Positions 9,635 to 17,012 of a stretch of 24,224 bases of DNA are shown piece by piece (position 1 is the stretch's first letter; the number at the start of each line of letters is the position of its first letter). Source of the stretch: a virus. The stretch covers positions 1 to 24,224 of IMG/VR virus record IMGVR_UViG_3300027801_000165; one strand, written 5' to 3'. Both the position numbers and the translations under genes were made by a program. The notes beneath the pieces are model-generated. The model was given only the letters and a program-made list of their open reading frames with translations, was not told the DNA's origin and ran no database searches.

Positions 9635-10138
9635 ATGGCTACACAAAGAGATCTTGCAGAACACTTGGATCTAAGCACTAAGCGGATAAGCGAGCTTATA
9701 AGGGACGGCATACTACCTTCTAAAATGGGTAGGAGTCCTTTAAATATAGATGTTTGCAGAATAGCTTACATTTCTTACCTCAGAAAACTTGGTGGCTACA
9801 ACAAGAGAAGCGGATCAGGAGATATAGCTGAGGAAAAGACCAGGCTAACTAAAGCACAAGCTGATAAAGCTGAGTTAGAAGTATCTTCATTAGAAGGTGA
9901 GCTAATACCAGCAAAGCTTGTACAAGATACCTGGTCTGAGCTTGTAGCAAACGTAAGAGCAAAACTGCTAGGACTACCATCTAAAATTGCTCATCAAGTT
10001 ATAGCGGTTGAAACATACCAGGATGCAGAATTAATAATCAAAGATCAGGTGTATGAAACACTTGATGAACTTTCAGGAACTAATGGAATACCAACTGAAT
10101 ATGCTGAACGTGTTGAAGAACACCAGGCAGACATTTAA
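9635..10138 (+). CDS. Terminase small subunit (Nu1-like)
   Basis: This 167-residue protein begins with a winged helix-turn-helix (TQRDLAEHLDLSTKRISELIRDGIL, residues 3-27), the DNA-recognition domain of Nu1-type small terminases. It is followed by a coiled-coil-like stretch (EEKTRLTKAQADKAELEVSSLEGELIP, about 68-94) and a helical C-terminus for assembly and large-subunit contact. It recognises the packaging site and loads the large subunit. The ATG at 9635 has no clear ribosome binding site; upstream in frame there is a stop at 9593 and no other ATG, GTG or TTG. It overlaps the large subunit gene, as is usual. A cos or pac site would be expected near here, but I cannot identify one. Confidence 0.82.
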   Translation: MATQRDLAEHLDLSTKRISELIRDGILPSKMGRSPLNIDVCRIAYISYLRKLGGYNKRSGSGDIAEEKTRLTKAQADKAELEVSSLEGELIPAKLVQDTWSELVANVRAKLLGLPSKIAHQVIAVETYQDAELIIKDQVYETLDELSGTNGIPTEYAERVEEHQADI

Positions 10139-11915
10139 ACCACCGCCAAAATTAACAATAAGCGAATGGGCGGATAGTTATAGAAAACTATCGCCTGAAT
10201 CTTCTGCTGAGTCAGGATCATGGAGAACTTCACGTTGTGAATACCAACGTGAAATAATGGACACCTTTAATGATCCAACTACTGAAAGAATTGTTGTTAT
10301 GACTTCAAGCCAAGTAGGTAAAACTGAAATCCTCTTAAATGCTATTGGATATTATATAGATCAAGATGCTTCACCAATTTTAGTAGTACAGCCTAATCTT
10401 TCTATGGGACAGGCTTTTAGTAAAGATAGACTTGCTGCAATGATAAGAGATAGTGAAAAGCTAAAAGATTGTGTGGCTGATGCTAAAAGAAAAGACTCAT
10501 CCAATACAACCATGCACAAAAAGTTTGCAGGTGGCCATATTTCTATAGTTGGATCTAATTCTAGTGCTGGACTCGCTAGTAGACCTATCCGTATTTTATT
10601 ACTAGATGAGTGTGATAGGTTTGAACAAAGCGTAGGTGGTGAAGGTTCACCAATAGCATTAGCGGTAGCCAGAACTAAAACTTTCTTTAATCGCAAGATC
10701 TTTATGTGTAGCACCCCAACAATAAAAGGTTTATCCGCTATTGAGGCTGCATTTGAAGAATCAGATCAAAGATACTTTAATGTGCCTTGCCCTGAGTGTA
10801 ATTTTAAACAGATATTAAAATGGAAAAACGTAGTATGGGAAGAAGATAAACCTGAGACTGCTGCCTATGCTTGTGAAGATTGCGGATCTGTAATAGAAGA
10901 ATCAAAGAAGCAGTGGATGATTACCAATGGCGAGTGGATAGCTACAGCTCCCAAAGTTAAAACTGCTGGCTTTCATATTTCAGAACTCTATTCAGTTTGG
11001 AGTACCTGGTCTGATATGGCTATTAACTTTCTGGAAGCTAAGAAAAACCCTGAAACTTTAAAGACATTTATAAATACTAGCTTGGGTGAGAGTTGGGAAG
11101 AAAAAGGTCAAAGTATTAATTATGAAGATCTCCTAGATAGAAGGCTTAATTATGATATTAATACAATACCTGAAGATGTTATGGTTCTGGTTGCAGGAGT
11201 TGATACCCAAAAAGATAGATTAGAGATCTCATTAGTTGGTTTTGCTAGAGATTATGAATGTTATGTTATTGACCACCGCATATTCTGGGGAGATCCAAAC
11301 GCTGCTCAGGTATGGAATGATCTTGATGATTTCTTAAAGAAAAGATTTCAAACTGAATCAGGTAGGATCATGCCAATATCTTGCACATGTATTGACTCAG
11401 GCGGACACCACACCAATCAGGTTTACCAATTTACTAAACCAAGACAAGCAAGAAGGGTTTTTGCTATTAAGGGTTTATCAGTTGCTGGCAAGCCAATAGC
11501 AAATAAGCCAACATTTGTAGGTAAGAATAGAGCTGTACTTTATGGAGTAGGTACAGATCAGGCTAAAGAATTAATATATGGAAGATTAGCAGTTGAACCA
11601 GATAAAACCACATTACATTTTGCAGCAGATCTTGATGAAGAATACTTTAAGCAGCTTACAGCTGAGAAAAGAATAACCACCTTTACAAGAGGAAAGAAAC
11701 AAATGGTCTGGAAACAGATACGTCCAAGAAATGAAACTCTTGATTGTTTGGTTTATTCATTTGCAGCTATCTATATACTAAATCCCAACTGGGATTCTAT
11801 TGAGACTAAAATTCTAAATCAATCAGCAGATCCAGTTAAAAATAATCAATCACAAAGAAATAATGCAAATATAAGACCTGGAAGAAATTTTGTTAATTCT
11901 TGGAAAGATTTATAA
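10101..11915 (+). CDS. Terminase large subunit (GpA family)
   Basis: With the start at 10101 this is 605 residues, near the usual length for lambda gpA-type terminases. Features are: ATPase Walker A-like TSSQVGKT at 68-75, Walker B ILLLDE at 165-170, a zinc-ribbon-like pair C230/C233 and C258/C261, and a nuclease domain with Asp368 in AGVDTQKD and Asp432 in CIDSGGHH. The protein cuts concatemeric DNA and pumps it into the prohead. An in-frame ATG at 10053 would lengthen it by 16 residues inside the small-subunit gene; I prefer 10101, which has GGAA about 12 bases upstream and starts just before the conserved TISEWAD region. Confidence 0.95.
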   Translation: MLNVLKNTRQTFKPPPKLTISEWADSYRKLSPESSAESGSWRTSRCEYQREIMDTFNDPTTERIVVMTSSQVGKTEILLNAIGYYIDQDASPILVVQPNLSMGQAFSKDRLAAMIRDSEKLKDCVADAKRKDSSNTTMHKKFAGGHISIVGSNSSAGLASRPIRILLLDECDRFEQSVGGEGSPIALAVARTKTFFNRKIFMCSTPTIKGLSAIEAAFEESDQRYFNVPCPECNFKQILKWKNVVWEEDKPETAAYACEDCGSVIEESKKQWMITNGEWIATAPKVKTAGFHISELYSVWSTWSDMAINFLEAKKNPETLKTFINTSLGESWEEKGQSINYEDLLDRRLNYDINTIPEDVMVLVAGVDTQKDRLEISLVGFARDYECYVIDHRIFWGDPNAAQVWNDLDDFLKKRFQTESGRIMPISCTCIDSGGHHTNQVYQFTKPRQARRVFAIKGLSVAGKPIANKPTFVGKNRAVLYGVGTDQAKELIYGRLAVEPDKTTLHFAADLDEEYFKQLTAEKRITTFTRGKKQMVWKQIRPRNETLDCLVYSFAAIYILNPNWDSIETKILNQSADPVKNNQSQRNNANIRPGRNFVNSWKDL

Positions 11916-11998: not shown

Positions 11999-12598
11999 TT
12001 GAGCAATATCTTTGATACTGAAAATTATCCATTAGAAATACCAACTACCTTACAGGTTAATGGCTATTGGGCGTGGAAAAGAACAGACCTGTCAAATGAT
12101 TATCCTACTGCTGATTATTCATTAGTATATAAATTGAATTTAATTAGCGGATCTACAGCAACCGCAATATCAATAACAGCTACAGAAGCTAATAATGAAT
12201 ACATATTTTTACACACAAGCACCAACTCAGTAACTCCAGGCGATTATAAATATGTAGTTAAGATTACTAAAACAGCTGGCGGAGCTGAAGCACATTTAGA
12301 AACAGGCTATGTAACTATCGAGAACGAAACTGTTAGATCTTTTGCAAAACAGATGTTAGATGCTATTGAAGCAGTGGCACTTAATAGAGCAACTATGGAT
12401 CAATCATCAATGAGTATTGCTGGCAGATCATTAAGCAGAATGTCTATAGATGAATTAAATACATTTAGAGATAAATATAAAACTGAATATTTACAAGAAG
12501 TAAAAATGGCAAGAGTAAAGAACAAACAAGGAAGCGGTAATAATATAAAAGTAAGGTTTGGATCTACAAACACCTATAACCCTACAGACCTAACATAA
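11999..12598 (+). CDS. Head-tail connector with gpW-like C-terminal segment
   Basis: This 199-residue protein starts at a TTG, the only plausible start, since the next Met is far inside the conserved sequence; a GGGG element at 11988-11991 is 7 bases upstream. Residues 1-110 are beta-rich and immunoglobulin-like (TLQVNGYWAWKR, YSLVYKLNL, ATAISITA, YVTIEN). Residues 113-180 resemble gpW-type connectors: FAKQMLDAIEAVALNR, then SMSIAGRSLSRMSIDEL. gpW plugs the filled head and joins it to the tail. Position between terminase and portal matches lambda W. The stop overlaps the portal ATG (TAATG). Confidence 0.65.
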   Translation: MSNIFDTENYPLEIPTTLQVNGYWAWKRTDLSNDYPTADYSLVYKLNLISGSTATAISITATEANNEYIFLHTSTNSVTPGDYKYVVKITKTAGGAEAHLETGYVTIENETVRSFAKQMLDAIEAVALNRATMDQSSMSIAGRSLSRMSIDELNTFRDKYKTEYLQEVKMARVKNKQGSGNNIKVRFGSTNTYNPTDLT

Positions 12599-14079
12599 TG
12601 GCTTGGTATAACAACATATTTAAAACTAAGCCCGAAAAAAGATCTTTTACATTTAAAAGAAATTATACAGGTGCTAGTACAGGTAGGCTGTTTGCTGATT
12701 TTATAACCAGTTCTAAATCAGCAGATGCTGAAATTAAAGACAGCCTAAGAACCCTAAGAGATAGAGCCAGAAACTTATCAAATAATGACTCTTATGTTTC
12801 TAGATATTTAAAGTTAATGGTAAGCAATGTTATTGGAAAACATGGCGTAAGAATTTCAGCTAAGGCCAGAGATGACAATGGATCTCTTGACCTATCAGCT
12901 AATAAACAAATAGAAGATGCCTGGAAAAAATGGACTAAAGTAGGAACTTGCACCGCCAATGGCAGAATGTCGTTTTTAGATTGTCAAAAACTTTTTGTTG
13001 AGTCTCTTGCAAGAGATGGCGAGGTTCTTATTAGACATATTAAGACCAATAATAGTCCTTATGGTTATCAGATACAGTTTATTGAAAGTGATTTATTAGA
13101 TGAGACTTTAAATTACACGCTTAAAAATGGCAATAAAGTCTGCATGGGTGTAGAAGTAGATCAATACAGAAAGCCTATTGCATACCATTTGTATAAAGAA
13201 AATCCTTATGGTGACTCATACGACATAAGTAACAAGCATATCAGAGTGCCAGCAGAAGAAATTACACACTGCTACATGCCTAATAGAGCAGAACAAACTA
13301 GAGGTGTGAGCCATATTGCCACTGCAATGTCTAATATTAAACAGCTTTCAGGATATTTAGAAGCAGAAATAGTAGCTGCAAGACTAGGAGCAAGTAAGTC
13401 AGGTTTCTTTAGTTCAGCTGATGGTAGTTCTTATGTTGGAGATGACCATGAAGATACTTTTAATCCTGTTATGAATGTAGAGCCTGGAACATTTCAACAA
13501 CTGCCAGACGGCATGACCTTTACCCCTTATGATCCTACTCATCCAACTAGTGCATTTGAAGGTTTCACAACTACAGTATTAAGATCTATAGCTTCAGGCC
13601 TAAACATCTCATACCACGCTTTGAGCAACGATTTAACCAGTGTCAACTACTCTTCAATCCGTCAGGGTGCATTAGAAGATAGATCTAACTACCAGCTTTG
13701 GCAAGAGTTTATAGTTCAACATTTTGTAGATGTAGTTTTTAAAAGATGGTTAGAAATGTCTATAACAACTAAAGCTATAAATCTTCCAATGGGTAAATTT
13801 GATAAGTTTGCTGATAGCGTTAATTACATTCCAAGATCATTTGCCTGGATAGATCCACTTAAAGAAATGCAAGCCAATGTAGTAGGTCTGCAAAATGGCA
13901 TTATTTCTTACTCAGATATTGTTAGTAGCTATGGAAAAGATGTTGAGGAAACATTTGAACAACATGCAAAAGAACAAGAATTAGCCAAATTATATGGCAT
14001 TAGCACTGCTTTCCAGCCTTTTGGTAATAAAGCACCAGTTCCAGCTGAAGTAGAAGGAGAAGCTGAAAATGAAGAATAA
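12598..14079 (+). CDS. Portal protein (lambda gpB family)
   Basis: This 493-residue protein shows the pattern of lambda-type portals: RARNLSNNDSYVSRYLKLMVSNVIGKHG near 52-80, RDGEVLIRHI at 138-147, a HCYMPNRAEQTRGVSHIATAMSNIKQLSGYLEAEIVAARLGASKSGF core (about 224-270) and SSIRQGALEDRSNY near 351-364. It forms the dodecameric ring at one vertex through which DNA enters and to which connectors attach. Length is normal. It begins in a TAATG overlap and its end overlaps the protease-capsid gene by 11 bases, fitting a translationally coupled operon. Confidence 0.93.
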   Translation: MAWYNNIFKTKPEKRSFTFKRNYTGASTGRLFADFITSSKSADAEIKDSLRTLRDRARNLSNNDSYVSRYLKLMVSNVIGKHGVRISAKARDDNGSLDLSANKQIEDAWKKWTKVGTCTANGRMSFLDCQKLFVESLARDGEVLIRHIKTNNSPYGYQIQFIESDLLDETLNYTLKNGNKVCMGVEVDQYRKPIAYHLYKENPYGDSYDISNKHIRVPAEEITHCYMPNRAEQTRGVSHIATAMSNIKQLSGYLEAEIVAARLGASKSGFFSSADGSSYVGDDHEDTFNPVMNVEPGTFQQLPDGMTFTPYDPTHPTSAFEGFTTTVLRSIASGLNISYHALSNDLTSVNYSSIRQGALEDRSNYQLWQEFIVQHFVDVVFKRWLEMSITTKAINLPMGKFDKFADSVNYIPRSFAWIDPLKEMQANVVGLQNGIISYSDIVSSYGKDVEETFEQHAKEQELAKLYGISTAFQPFGNKAPVPAEVEGEAENEE

Positions 14080-16030
14080 AGAAGTTCAAGAGGTAGAAAT
14101 ACCAAATGAAAAACATCCATTAACTAGCGAGGTTAAAAATATGGAAATTGAAAACAATGAACATATCCTTGACGAAGTAGCAGCTGAAGAAATATTAGCT
14201 GTTGAAACAGTAGAGGATGTGGTTGTAGAAGAAGAAATTAATGTAGATGGAAATGATAGATTATTTAGCAATGAAATTGCTTACAGAACAATAGACCTAT
14301 CAAGAGCTAAATATATTGATGAAGATAATAGACGCGTCCGTATTTCAGTCTCAAGTGAAAGTGAAGTGCTGCGCGATTTTGGCTTAGAAGTTTTAAGCCA
14401 TAAAGCTGAAGATATAGATATGTCATTTATAGCCTCAGGCAATGCTCCACTACTTGCGAATCATAGAATGGATGAGCAGATTGGGATTGTTGAAGAATTT
14501 AAACTTGATGAGACTGCTAAGAGGACAACAGCAGTAGTCAGATTTGGGCAATCTGATTTAGCCACTCAAGCATGGTTAGACGTAAAAAGCGGTATAAAGA
14601 AAAATATCTCCGTTGGTTACAAAATTAACACACTAGAACGATCAAACAACGACATTATCGGAGATCATTACAGAGCATCATGGATGCCAATGGAAGCCAG
14701 CTTAGTTGCAATAGGGGCAGATTTATCGGTAGGTATTGGAAGGTCAAAATCAAAAACAAACAAAAAGGTAAAAATTAAAATGGAAGAAAAAAAAGAAATT
14801 AACCTTGATGAAGTAAGATCCCAAAGTGCGGATGATGCTAGAAAAGAAATGGCTAAAAACTCAAAAGAGATTTTAGATCTAGCTGCTAAACACAACAAAA
14901 GAGATCTTGGTAATCAAGCAATAGGAAATGGATCAAGTGTTGAAGAATTTAGAGGAACATTACTAAATGAAATTGGTAATTCACAACCTTTAGAAACTCC
15001 TGCAAATATTGGCTTAACAGAAAAAGAAACTAAAAGGTTCTCAATTCTAAAAGCAGTAAATGCTATGGCTAATCCAACTGATAGACGTGCGCAAGAGGAT
15101 GCTGCATTTGAATTTGAATGTTCAGCTGCTGCTGCGGATGTGCAAGGTAGAACAGCACAAGGCGTAATGCTTCCTGCTGAGATTATGTCTCAATGGGGAA
15201 ATAGAGGAATGACAATGGGTAATGAAGGTGATCTTTCAGGTGAAGATTTCAGACCTCAAGACTTTATAGATGTTCTAAGAGCTAATTCAAGCATCATGTC
15301 AGCAGGCGCGACCATGCTTCGTGGATTAACAGGTGATGTGAAAATACCGAAGAAATTAACTGCTTCAGCCGCTGCTTTTGTAGCTACTGAAGGTGGTGCG
15401 GTTGCTAACCAGACTCCTACTATTGGAAATATTAGTCTTACTCCCCGCACATTAGGAGCATTTGTAGATACAACTCGCCAACTTATGATTCAATCTTCAT
15501 TAGATGTTGAAAATCTAATTAGAGACGATCTAACTAAGGCTATAGCAATTCATATCGACAATGTAGCTATTAGCGGTTCTGGTAATAATGGAAACCCAAA
15601 AGGCATTTTAAATACAACTGGAATTAACTCTGCCGCAGCTTTTGCAGCAGCAGCTTCTCCAACTTATTTAGAAATGCTTGGAATGGAATCTTTAGTTGCT
15701 GCCGACAATGCTCTGCTTGGTGATTTAAGTTACATAGTAAATCCTACAAATATGGGAAATATGAAAGGAACTCCAAAAGTAGCAGGAACATCTAGCTTTG
15801 TCGCAGAAGGTGGTCAAATAAATGGATATAACGCAATAGTTTCAACACAAATTGATGCTAATAAATATTTATTTGGTAACTTCTCAGACTTCCTAGTTGG
15901 CTTCTTTGGAACGCTTGATATTGTTGTAGATCCATATAGCTTATCTTCAACTGGTAGTGTCAGAATCGTGGCATTAAATTCAGTAGATATGGCCGTAAGA
16001 CACCCAGTATCATTCTGTAAAGCTGGTTAA
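14069..16030 (+). CDS. Prohead protease - major capsid protein fusion (HK97-type)
   Basis: This 653-residue polyprotein has two halves. After a Glu-rich leader (1-60), residues 62-225 form an S78 prohead protease, with His132 in LLANHRMDEQIG, Ser181 in NISVGYK and Glu209 in PMEASLVA. A Lys-rich hinge (225-245) and a helical delta-like segment (245-300) follow. Residues about 385-653 are an HK97-fold capsid protein (SSIMSAGATMLRGLTG, LTPRTLGAFVDTTRQL, HIDNVAISGSGNNGNPKGIL). In most phages these are separate genes. The fusion would self-cleave during maturation. An internal ATG at 14780 could also make free capsid protein. Confidence 0.92.
   Translation: MKNKEVQEVEIPNEKHPLTSEVKNMEIENNEHILDEVAAEEILAVETVEDVVVEEEINVDGNDRLFSNEIAYRTIDLSRAKYIDEDNRRVRISVSSESEVLRDFGLEVLSHKAEDIDMSFIASGNAPLLANHRMDEQIGIVEEFKLDETAKRTTAVVRFGQSDLATQAWLDVKSGIKKNISVGYKINTLERSNNDIIGDHYRASWMPMEASLVAIGADLSVGIGRSKSKTNKKVKIKMEEKKEINLDEVRSQSADDARKEMAKNSKEILDLAAKHNKRDLGNQAIGNGSSVEEFRGTLLNEIGNSQPLETPANIGLTEKETKRFSILKAVNAMANPTDRRAQEDAAFEFECSAAAADVQGRTAQGVMLPAEIMSQWGNRGMTMGNEGDLSGEDFRPQDFIDVLRANSSIMSAGATMLRGLTGDVKIPKKLTASAAAFVATEGGAVANQTPTIGNISLTPRTLGAFVDTTRQLMIQSSLDVENLIRDDLTKAIAIHIDNVAISGSGNNGNPKGILNTTGINSAAAFAAAASPTYLEMLGMESLVAADNALLGDLSYIVNPTNMGNMKGTPKVAGTSSFVAEGGQINGYNAIVSTQIDANKYLFGNFSDFLVGFFGTLDIVVDPYSLSSTGSVRIVALNSVDMAVRHPVSFCKAG
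14764..14782 (+). promoter_or_regulatory. Possible internal ribosome binding site and start for free capsid precursor
   Basis: AAAGG at 14764-14768 lies 11 bases before an in-frame ATG at 14780-14782 (Met238, MEEKKEINLD), exactly in the hinge between protease and capsid domains. A product from here would be 416 residues (delta-like segment plus capsid). The spacing is slightly long but acceptable in this genome. Confidence 0.4.
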
Positions 16031-16302: not shown

Positions 16303-16662
16303 ATGGCTCTTGAAAGTGCAGCAGATTTCAGATCTTATACCAATCCAGGTATAGGTGGCGTGTCTGCTACATTTTTAGAGATCCAGAATAATTTAAGCGG
16401 TAACACGTCAATAATTAACATAATAATTGACCAAGAATATTTTAATATACAAGGTAATAGCGTTGGCGTAGATGGCTACCAGCCAAGAGCAATGATAAGC
16501 ATTTTAGATGCACCATATATAAGTATTGATGATAAATTAACAGTACATGCGGTTACGACAAATAAAGGGAGCCAATTAACTCCAGAGACTGTATTTAAGG
16601 TTGTCTCAGCTGAGAATGACAATCTAGGAATGGTTAATCTTGTTTTGGCTGAATTTGCATGA
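16303..16662 (+). CDS. Head-tail attachment protein, FII-like, copy A
   Basis: This 119-residue protein resembles lambda gpFII (117 residues): ATFLEIQNNLSG...SIINIIIDQEYF near 22-48, then VGVDGYQPRAMISILDA (53-70) and DDKLTVHAV (76-84), matching the FII pattern of a strand, a G-V-x-V-x-G-x-x-P turn and DTLTI. FII joins the finished head to the tail. It is paralogous to the next gene. It starts two bases after the previous stop with a weak ribosome binding site and its TGA overlaps the next ATG. Confidence 0.65.
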   Translation: MALESAADFRSYTNPGIGGVSATFLEIQNNLSGNTSIINIIIDQEYFNIQGNSVGVDGYQPRAMISILDAPYISIDDKLTVHAVTTNKGSQLTPETVFKVVSAENDNLGMVNLVLAEFA

Positions 16663-17012
16663 GTTTATACGAGCTAGAAACCGAAGAAGATATGGACTCT
16701 TATTTAGATACAGAATTTGGTCATGGAATACAGGCCACTTATGTAAATAGCAATAATGCTAGTGCTGTAATTAATATTATTTTAAATAATGAATTTTTAG
16801 AAAATGATGCAGGTGTTGGAATAGAAGGAACTCAACCCATTGCCTATTGTAGATCTATAGATCTACCAAGTATTGCATTTGGCAATCAATTAAATGTAAC
16901 AGCGGTAAAGGATGTTGATGGAAATATATTAAGTCCTGCTCAAAATTATACAGTTGTAAGCATTCAATCAGATAGAACTGGATTTACTTCTTTAGAGTTG
17001 GAGAAAGCATAA
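16659..17012 (+). CDS. Head-tail attachment protein, FII-like, copy B
   Basis: This 117-residue protein has the same plan as copy A: ATYVNSNNASAVINIILNNEFL, GVGIEGTQPIAYCRSIDLP, GNQLNVTAV, a L(T/S)P...(F/Y)(K/T)VVS strand, and SLELEKA. Shared positions, including the VG(V/I)(D/E)GxQP turn and the VINII strand, support a tandem duplication followed by divergence. It starts in an ATGA overlap. One copy may serve the head side and the other the tail side of the joint, or one may replace the missing gpZ at its usual place; both ideas are inference. Confidence 0.65.
   Translation: MSLYELETEEDMDSYLDTEFGHGIQATYVNSNNASAVINIILNNEFLENDAGVGIEGTQPIAYCRSIDLPSIAFGNQLNVTAVKDVDGNILSPAQNYTVVSIQSDRTGFTSLELEKA

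Follow-up and report, generated by a model that had tools for sequence, protein, structure and literature searches.

A viral gene at positions 14069-16030 of the 24,224-base stretch of an IMG/VR virus record analyzed here (hereafter "the window"; all features lie on the plus strand) very probably has two in-frame starts, yielding both a protease-capsid fusion and a 416-aa capsid precursor similar to HK97 gp5, with the two products co-assembling. The features that point to this can all be read from the sequences: the fusion, the position of its hinge, an initiation codon conserved there, the placement of an SD element before it, low local structure around it, and the starts used by relatives in which protease and capsid genes are split. 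The comparative evidence across these sequences is strong, and it is the relatives, not the window copy, that give the candidate internal start at ATG 14780 its significance. Protease-capsid fusions as such are already known and not unusual.

Domain organization of the fused gene

The open reading frame spans 653 uninterrupted codons and encodes an S78-type prohead protease, a scaffold-like helical region, and an HK97-fold major capsid protein in a single 653-aa product. It starts behind an AAGGAG element (14054-14059) with an SD energy (that of the best duplex formed between ACCUCCUUA and bases -20 to -4) of -8.8, and its first 11 nt are shared with the 3′ end of a lambda-type portal protein gene (12598-14079). 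A lambda-type terminase (gpA) gene (10053-11915) lies further upstream, and a match to a lambda-type head-tail attachment family is found downstream of the fusion (16659-17012). The first 68 residues of the fusion are acidic and predicted to be disordered, and translation of the fusion might alternatively start at a second in-frame ATG at 14141 (Met25; SD energy -7.1).

The capsid domain (residues 396-651, 15254-16021) was delineated from a Phage_capsid match (PF05065, E 3.9e-36) and structure comparison (Z about 18 to both 8gta and 8fqk), and residues 71-651 match the full-length profile of PHROG 617 (phrog_617, E 1e-134). The helical, delta/scaffold-like region (residues 246-376, 14804-15196) is supported by the predicted structure and comparison to HK97, and the protease domain (residues 71-225, 14279-14743) by alignments, predicted structure, and Pfam and PDB matches. 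The window's own protease half scored below threshold in the Pfam search for S78 (PF04586). This N-terminal part is nevertheless an S78-type protease, with predicted activity, because PF04586 was matched by 24 of 25 aligned protease halves from relatives, His132 (14462-14464) and Ser181 (14609-14611) are invariant across 33 aligned sequences, and the best PDB match of its structural model is the T4 protease gp21 (5jbl, E 4e-4). A profile-based PDB search with the protease half returned a single match (E 0.28), which was taken as chance, and the NCBIfam model for prohead protease/major capsid protein fusions (NF045541) matched the N-terminal part only, at 132.5 bits, short of its curated cut-off of 525. 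The PF05065, phrog_617, and T4 gp21 matches, along with PF04586 in relatives, bear out an earlier sequence-only reading that had placed an S78 protease and an HK97-fold capsid in one frame.

That reading had also proposed an in-frame ATG at 14780, lying exactly at the domain hinge with AAAGG 11 nt upstream, as a start for free capsid precursor, and its description of the site is accurate. The ATG (14780-14782) is codon 238, AAAGG occupies 14764-14768, and Met238 falls inside a disordered hinge (residues 216-250, 14714-14818; AlphaFold2 pLDDT <50) between the protease strands, which extend to residue 213, and the helical region, which begins at 246. Initiation there is predicted to yield the 416-aa short product (14780-16030). 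Judged from the window alone, the internal-start signal is weak, since its SD energy is only -3.9, its 11-nt spacing is longer than typical, and three of the 19 other in-frame ATGs have a better SD (14141; 15209, -5.5; 15215, -6.0). The SD is also weaker than the median of family representatives (-5.9). It is ordinary for this contig, in which 10 of 25 likely gene starts have weaker SDs, among them the starts of the portal and terminase open reading frames, and ATG 14780 has the least structured context among the in-frame ATGs of the gene (fold 0.0).

The hinge codon across relatives

A tblastn search against 50,697 phage records identified 76 with a match, which in 51 of them spans 80% or more of the protein; matches include VP882, phiHAP-1, S-CBS1, RcRhea, and ep3, and most carry the annotation "major capsid" or "major head" protein. 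Relatives from four further clades were retrieved using the capsid half so as to avoid selection on the protease; the R4C capsid half used on its own retrieved none. After exclusion of L001, L110, and L124, 442 source loci were left, of which 441 had a domain detected by profile HMMs built for this study (by elimination, L123 did not). These comprised 419 fused loci, 21 capsid-only loci (18 cut by a contig end and three split), and a single protease-only locus (L122), in which the hinge has an ATG with an SD energy of -9.5. The fused loci include near-duplicates, and were reduced to 196 nonredundant genes, 193 of them with an ATG at the hinge. Because the hinge aligns badly, Met238 is absent from the invariant positions of the alignments, and counts were therefore made gene by gene. 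Several loci (L010, L011, L024, L034, L036, and others) have frames that stay open from stop to stop for 780-960 codons and extend well beyond the protease domain on its upstream side, and the capsid gene is annotated as >800 aa in some records; these starts look over-extended. Close relatives of the capsid gene also occur in bins labelled Euryarchaeota, Sphingobacteriales, Flavobacteriaceae, and SAR86 (L112, L113, L114, and L117), probably as mis-binned viral contigs.

An initiation codon is present at the protease-capsid joint in all 419 fused loci. In 413 of these, an in-frame ATG is found in the 50 residues that follow the protease domain, 0-48 residues past its end (median 17). Among the remaining six, one has an ATG at residue 51 along with an SD-like stretch (L441), and five have a GTG, preceded by GGAGG in L120 and, in the other four (L236, L237, L240, and L241), standing at the place of an ATG in their relatives. 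The presence of a Met is by itself weak evidence, since 83% of other downstream 50-residue windows contain one. In an initial set of 20 phages and 80 metagenomic relatives, linkers vary in length and sequence, yet nearly all place a Met at the beginning of the capsid precursor, often with start-like residues after it (MSE, MTD, MEN).

The hinge Met could instead be a processing site, or a structural linker residue, cut by the S78 protease. The hinge must indeed be cut at maturation, and the deposited R4C capsid chain begins far downstream of it, at the equivalent of window residue 387. However, across the flanking positions -9 to +9, entropy never falls below 2.86 bits (193 aligned representatives), and this lack of conserved neighbors argues against a cleavage site. 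In addition, the Val replacing Met is encoded by GTG in five of five loci, even though the share of GTG among Val codons, determined for three of the genes, is only 39-53%, and the SD is enriched at the codon level (see below). The five GTG cases represent perhaps three independent changes, so that taken alone they are supportive but short of conclusive. Given the absence of a flanking motif and the consistent use of GTG, we rejected the cleavage-site reading as very improbable.

Beyond the codon itself, hinge ATGs are associated with SD elements much more often than other Met codons. SD energies of -5 or lower were found for 288 of 413 hinge ATGs compared to 345 of 3401 capsid-domain Met codons, and for 137 of 193 compared to 165 of 1586 in the nonredundant set. 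For genes with several hinge ATGs, the 413-gene count takes the one with the best SD, a choice avoided by restricting the analysis to representatives with a single hinge Met. Outside of the cyanophage-type clade, these (n = 124) have a mean SD energy of -6.26, whereas 495 controls average -1.67 (p 4.7e-51; p values ignore the relatedness of genes and are indicative only). When codons were shuffled synonymously using the same gene's usage, this set yielded a Z of -1.10 at the hinge and +0.23 at controls, so that codon choice, and not amino acids alone, creates the hinge SD. Local folding is likewise reduced at the hinge (-5.5 vs. -11.6 kcal/mol in controls), and AGG, GGA, and GAG triplets peak at positions -14 to -9 before the hinge codon (168 genes). 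The same SD result was obtained with an earlier set of 106 genes (75 nonredundant), from which three of 109 lacking the VGxGR motif had been left out and inspected separately.

These patterns bear on whether the full-length fusion alone is made, with a protease on every shell subunit and Met238 incidental. Such a scenario would fit the strong SD of the upstream start (-8.8) and the modest SD at 14780, which is not the best of the gene, but it is difficult to reconcile with an initiation codon at every joint, a position-specific SD and open structure in most clades, and an unconserved linker, and we consider it improbable.

The cyanophage-type relatives (L205-L284, L011, L014, and L024) differ in their signals. 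Their hinge codon, which is ATG except for a GTG in four loci, sits in a C-rich, G-poor, unstructured leader. It lacks an SD in the 16 representatives that have a single Met there (mean +1.0, a poorer value than in controls), while local folding was again low (-5.2 vs. -14.6 in controls). With the SD absent, only the codon and the open structure argue for a start in this clade, which we read as a possible SD-independent internal initiation. Initiation of this kind is often used by cyanobacteria.

Linkers are open in frame in all 419 fused genes, which follows from the definition of "fused", and among loci not cut by a contig end, split genes occur in only three. As no fused linker has an in-frame stop and none has lost its initiation codon, both the long and the short products seem to be under selection. 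In the three split loci (L343, L344, and L358), an S78 protease open reading frame (PF04586, E 2e-37 to 7e-20) is accompanied by a separate capsid gene in a different frame. That gene opens with an ATG of its own, preceded by AAAGGAG or GAGG and located close to the end of the protease or overlapping it; the capsid of L344 is also a member of PHROG 617. This layout would be the one expected before fusion, or after fission. The check proposed from sequence alone, i.e., conservation of the ATG and its SD in relatives, was thus strongly positive, with split relatives using such a start as a true gene start. The presumed older arrangement seen in these relatives might also suggest that the start and SD of fused genes are no longer used and are left over from a formerly separate capsid gene. 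Such a relic, however, would have had to persist through 196 nonredundant genes with diverged linkers, at the levels of codon choice, spacing, structure, and the start codon alike, which we deem highly unlikely.

Comparison with known head genes and other fusion types

The same one-frame S78 and HK97-type architecture is found in PHROG 617 members from Vibrio phage VP882, Halomonas phage phiHAP-1, Escherichia phage ep3, Synechococcus phage S-CBS1, and Dinoroseobacter phage R4C. In 20 phage records of this type, the internal start is not annotated, and each lists one protein. In HK97, the protease gp4 and capsid gp5 are encoded by two separate genes, whereas here a single frame holds a nested start. 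The predicted short product nonetheless shares the capsid fold of gp5 and the same layout, with a helical scaffold-like region before the capsid. Residue 76 of HK97 prohead I aligns with window residue 321, which by extrapolation places gp5 residue 1 near window residue 246, close to Met238. The late beginning of the R4C chain (equivalent of residue 387) indicates that the mature capsid has probably lost the protease, linker, and helical region, or holds them in disordered form. Passages of the R4C structure paper (PMC10276861) mention 415 copies of the major capsid protein and contain neither "protease" nor "cleav".

The window gene can also be compared to other nested head genes. Nested in-frame head genes are known: in lambda, an in-frame internal start inside the head protease gene C gives rise to the shorter Nu3, which is a scaffold, and the capsid gene is separate. 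The earlier suggestion of a lambda C/Nu3-like arrangement thus fits with respect to mechanism, as the window gene has, at the sequence level, an in-frame internal initiation codon with an SD and a shared C-terminus, but not with respect to product, as the short frame contains the HK97-fold capsid rather than an independent scaffold protein. In herpesviruses, the long protease form UL26 and the short protease-free form UL26.5 share their C-terminal part, as would the two products here; UL26.5, a scaffold, is translated from an mRNA of its own. By analogy, the short form could come from a separate, shorter mRNA transcribed from a promoter inside the protease region, with the same proteins as a result. 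A scan of 13900-14900, limited to certain promoter types, found two promoter-like matches when 3.7 were expected by chance, and the hinge SD would be needed in either case. We therefore set this nested-mRNA alternative aside as unlikely and retain internal initiation.

Similar joints were observed in two other fusion types. Salmonella phage Gifsy-2 reportedly has a "tripartite capsid gene" with protease, scaffold, and capsid in one frame. As in the window gene, a Met with an SD is found at its protease/scaffold joint (M221), although the protease is ClpP-type and the capsid belongs to another family (phrog_133). Among 82 ClpP-type protease-scaffold-capsid fusions examined (L124, 7472-9562; L445; and L447-L526), all 16 nonredundant genes have a Met 22 residues after GFAD, with an SD energy of -5.4 to -8.8, but this test is weaker because the stretch around that Met is conserved as protein. 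In RcKai (PHROG 4523), where an S78 protease is fused to a phrog_133-type capsid, Met214 is associated with AAAGG (SD energy -5.6).

Proposed mechanism and implications

We infer the production of both proteins, their co-assembly, their ratio, and the cleavage steps as follows. Initiation at 14069 would yield the full protease-capsid fusion, and initiation at 14780, via the SD in the linker, a capsid precursor with the helical scaffold-like domain but without the protease. Because the capsid half is common to both, long and short products should co-assemble into a mosaic prohead, in which a fraction of the subunits would have a tethered internal protease, and the protease would then cut away the linker and scaffold region at maturation. 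The sequence-only reading had further proposed that protease-free capsid is made in excess. While the relatives support the internal start itself, SD strength does not support the excess: in the window, the fusion start (-8.8) outscores the internal one (-3.9), and across 16 genes the internal SD was stronger in eight, weaker in seven (including the window), and equal in one. Given the strong SD at the fusion start, the short form does not have to predominate.

On balance, we lean towards protease-capsid fusions being dual-output genes more generally, with a selected start, mostly SD-led but SD-free in the cyanophage type, setting how many prohead subunits bear a protease. This would have been kept, or have arisen, in three fusion types: S78 with an HK97-type capsid (phrog_617), S78 with a phrog_133-type capsid (RcKai, phrog_4523), and ClpP with a phrog_133-type capsid (Gifsy-2). 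Searches of open-access papers yielded no report of an internal start separating capsid from protease in such fusions. If true, the dual-start reading would resolve the apparent stoichiometry puzzle of one protease per shell subunit in a widespread phage group, and a class of database "major capsid proteins" would probably correspond to two proteins per gene. This would in turn affect annotation, proteomics, and recombinant capsid work, in which a construct producing only the long form may misassemble, and the number of proteases a prohead needs would become directly testable through a single start codon.
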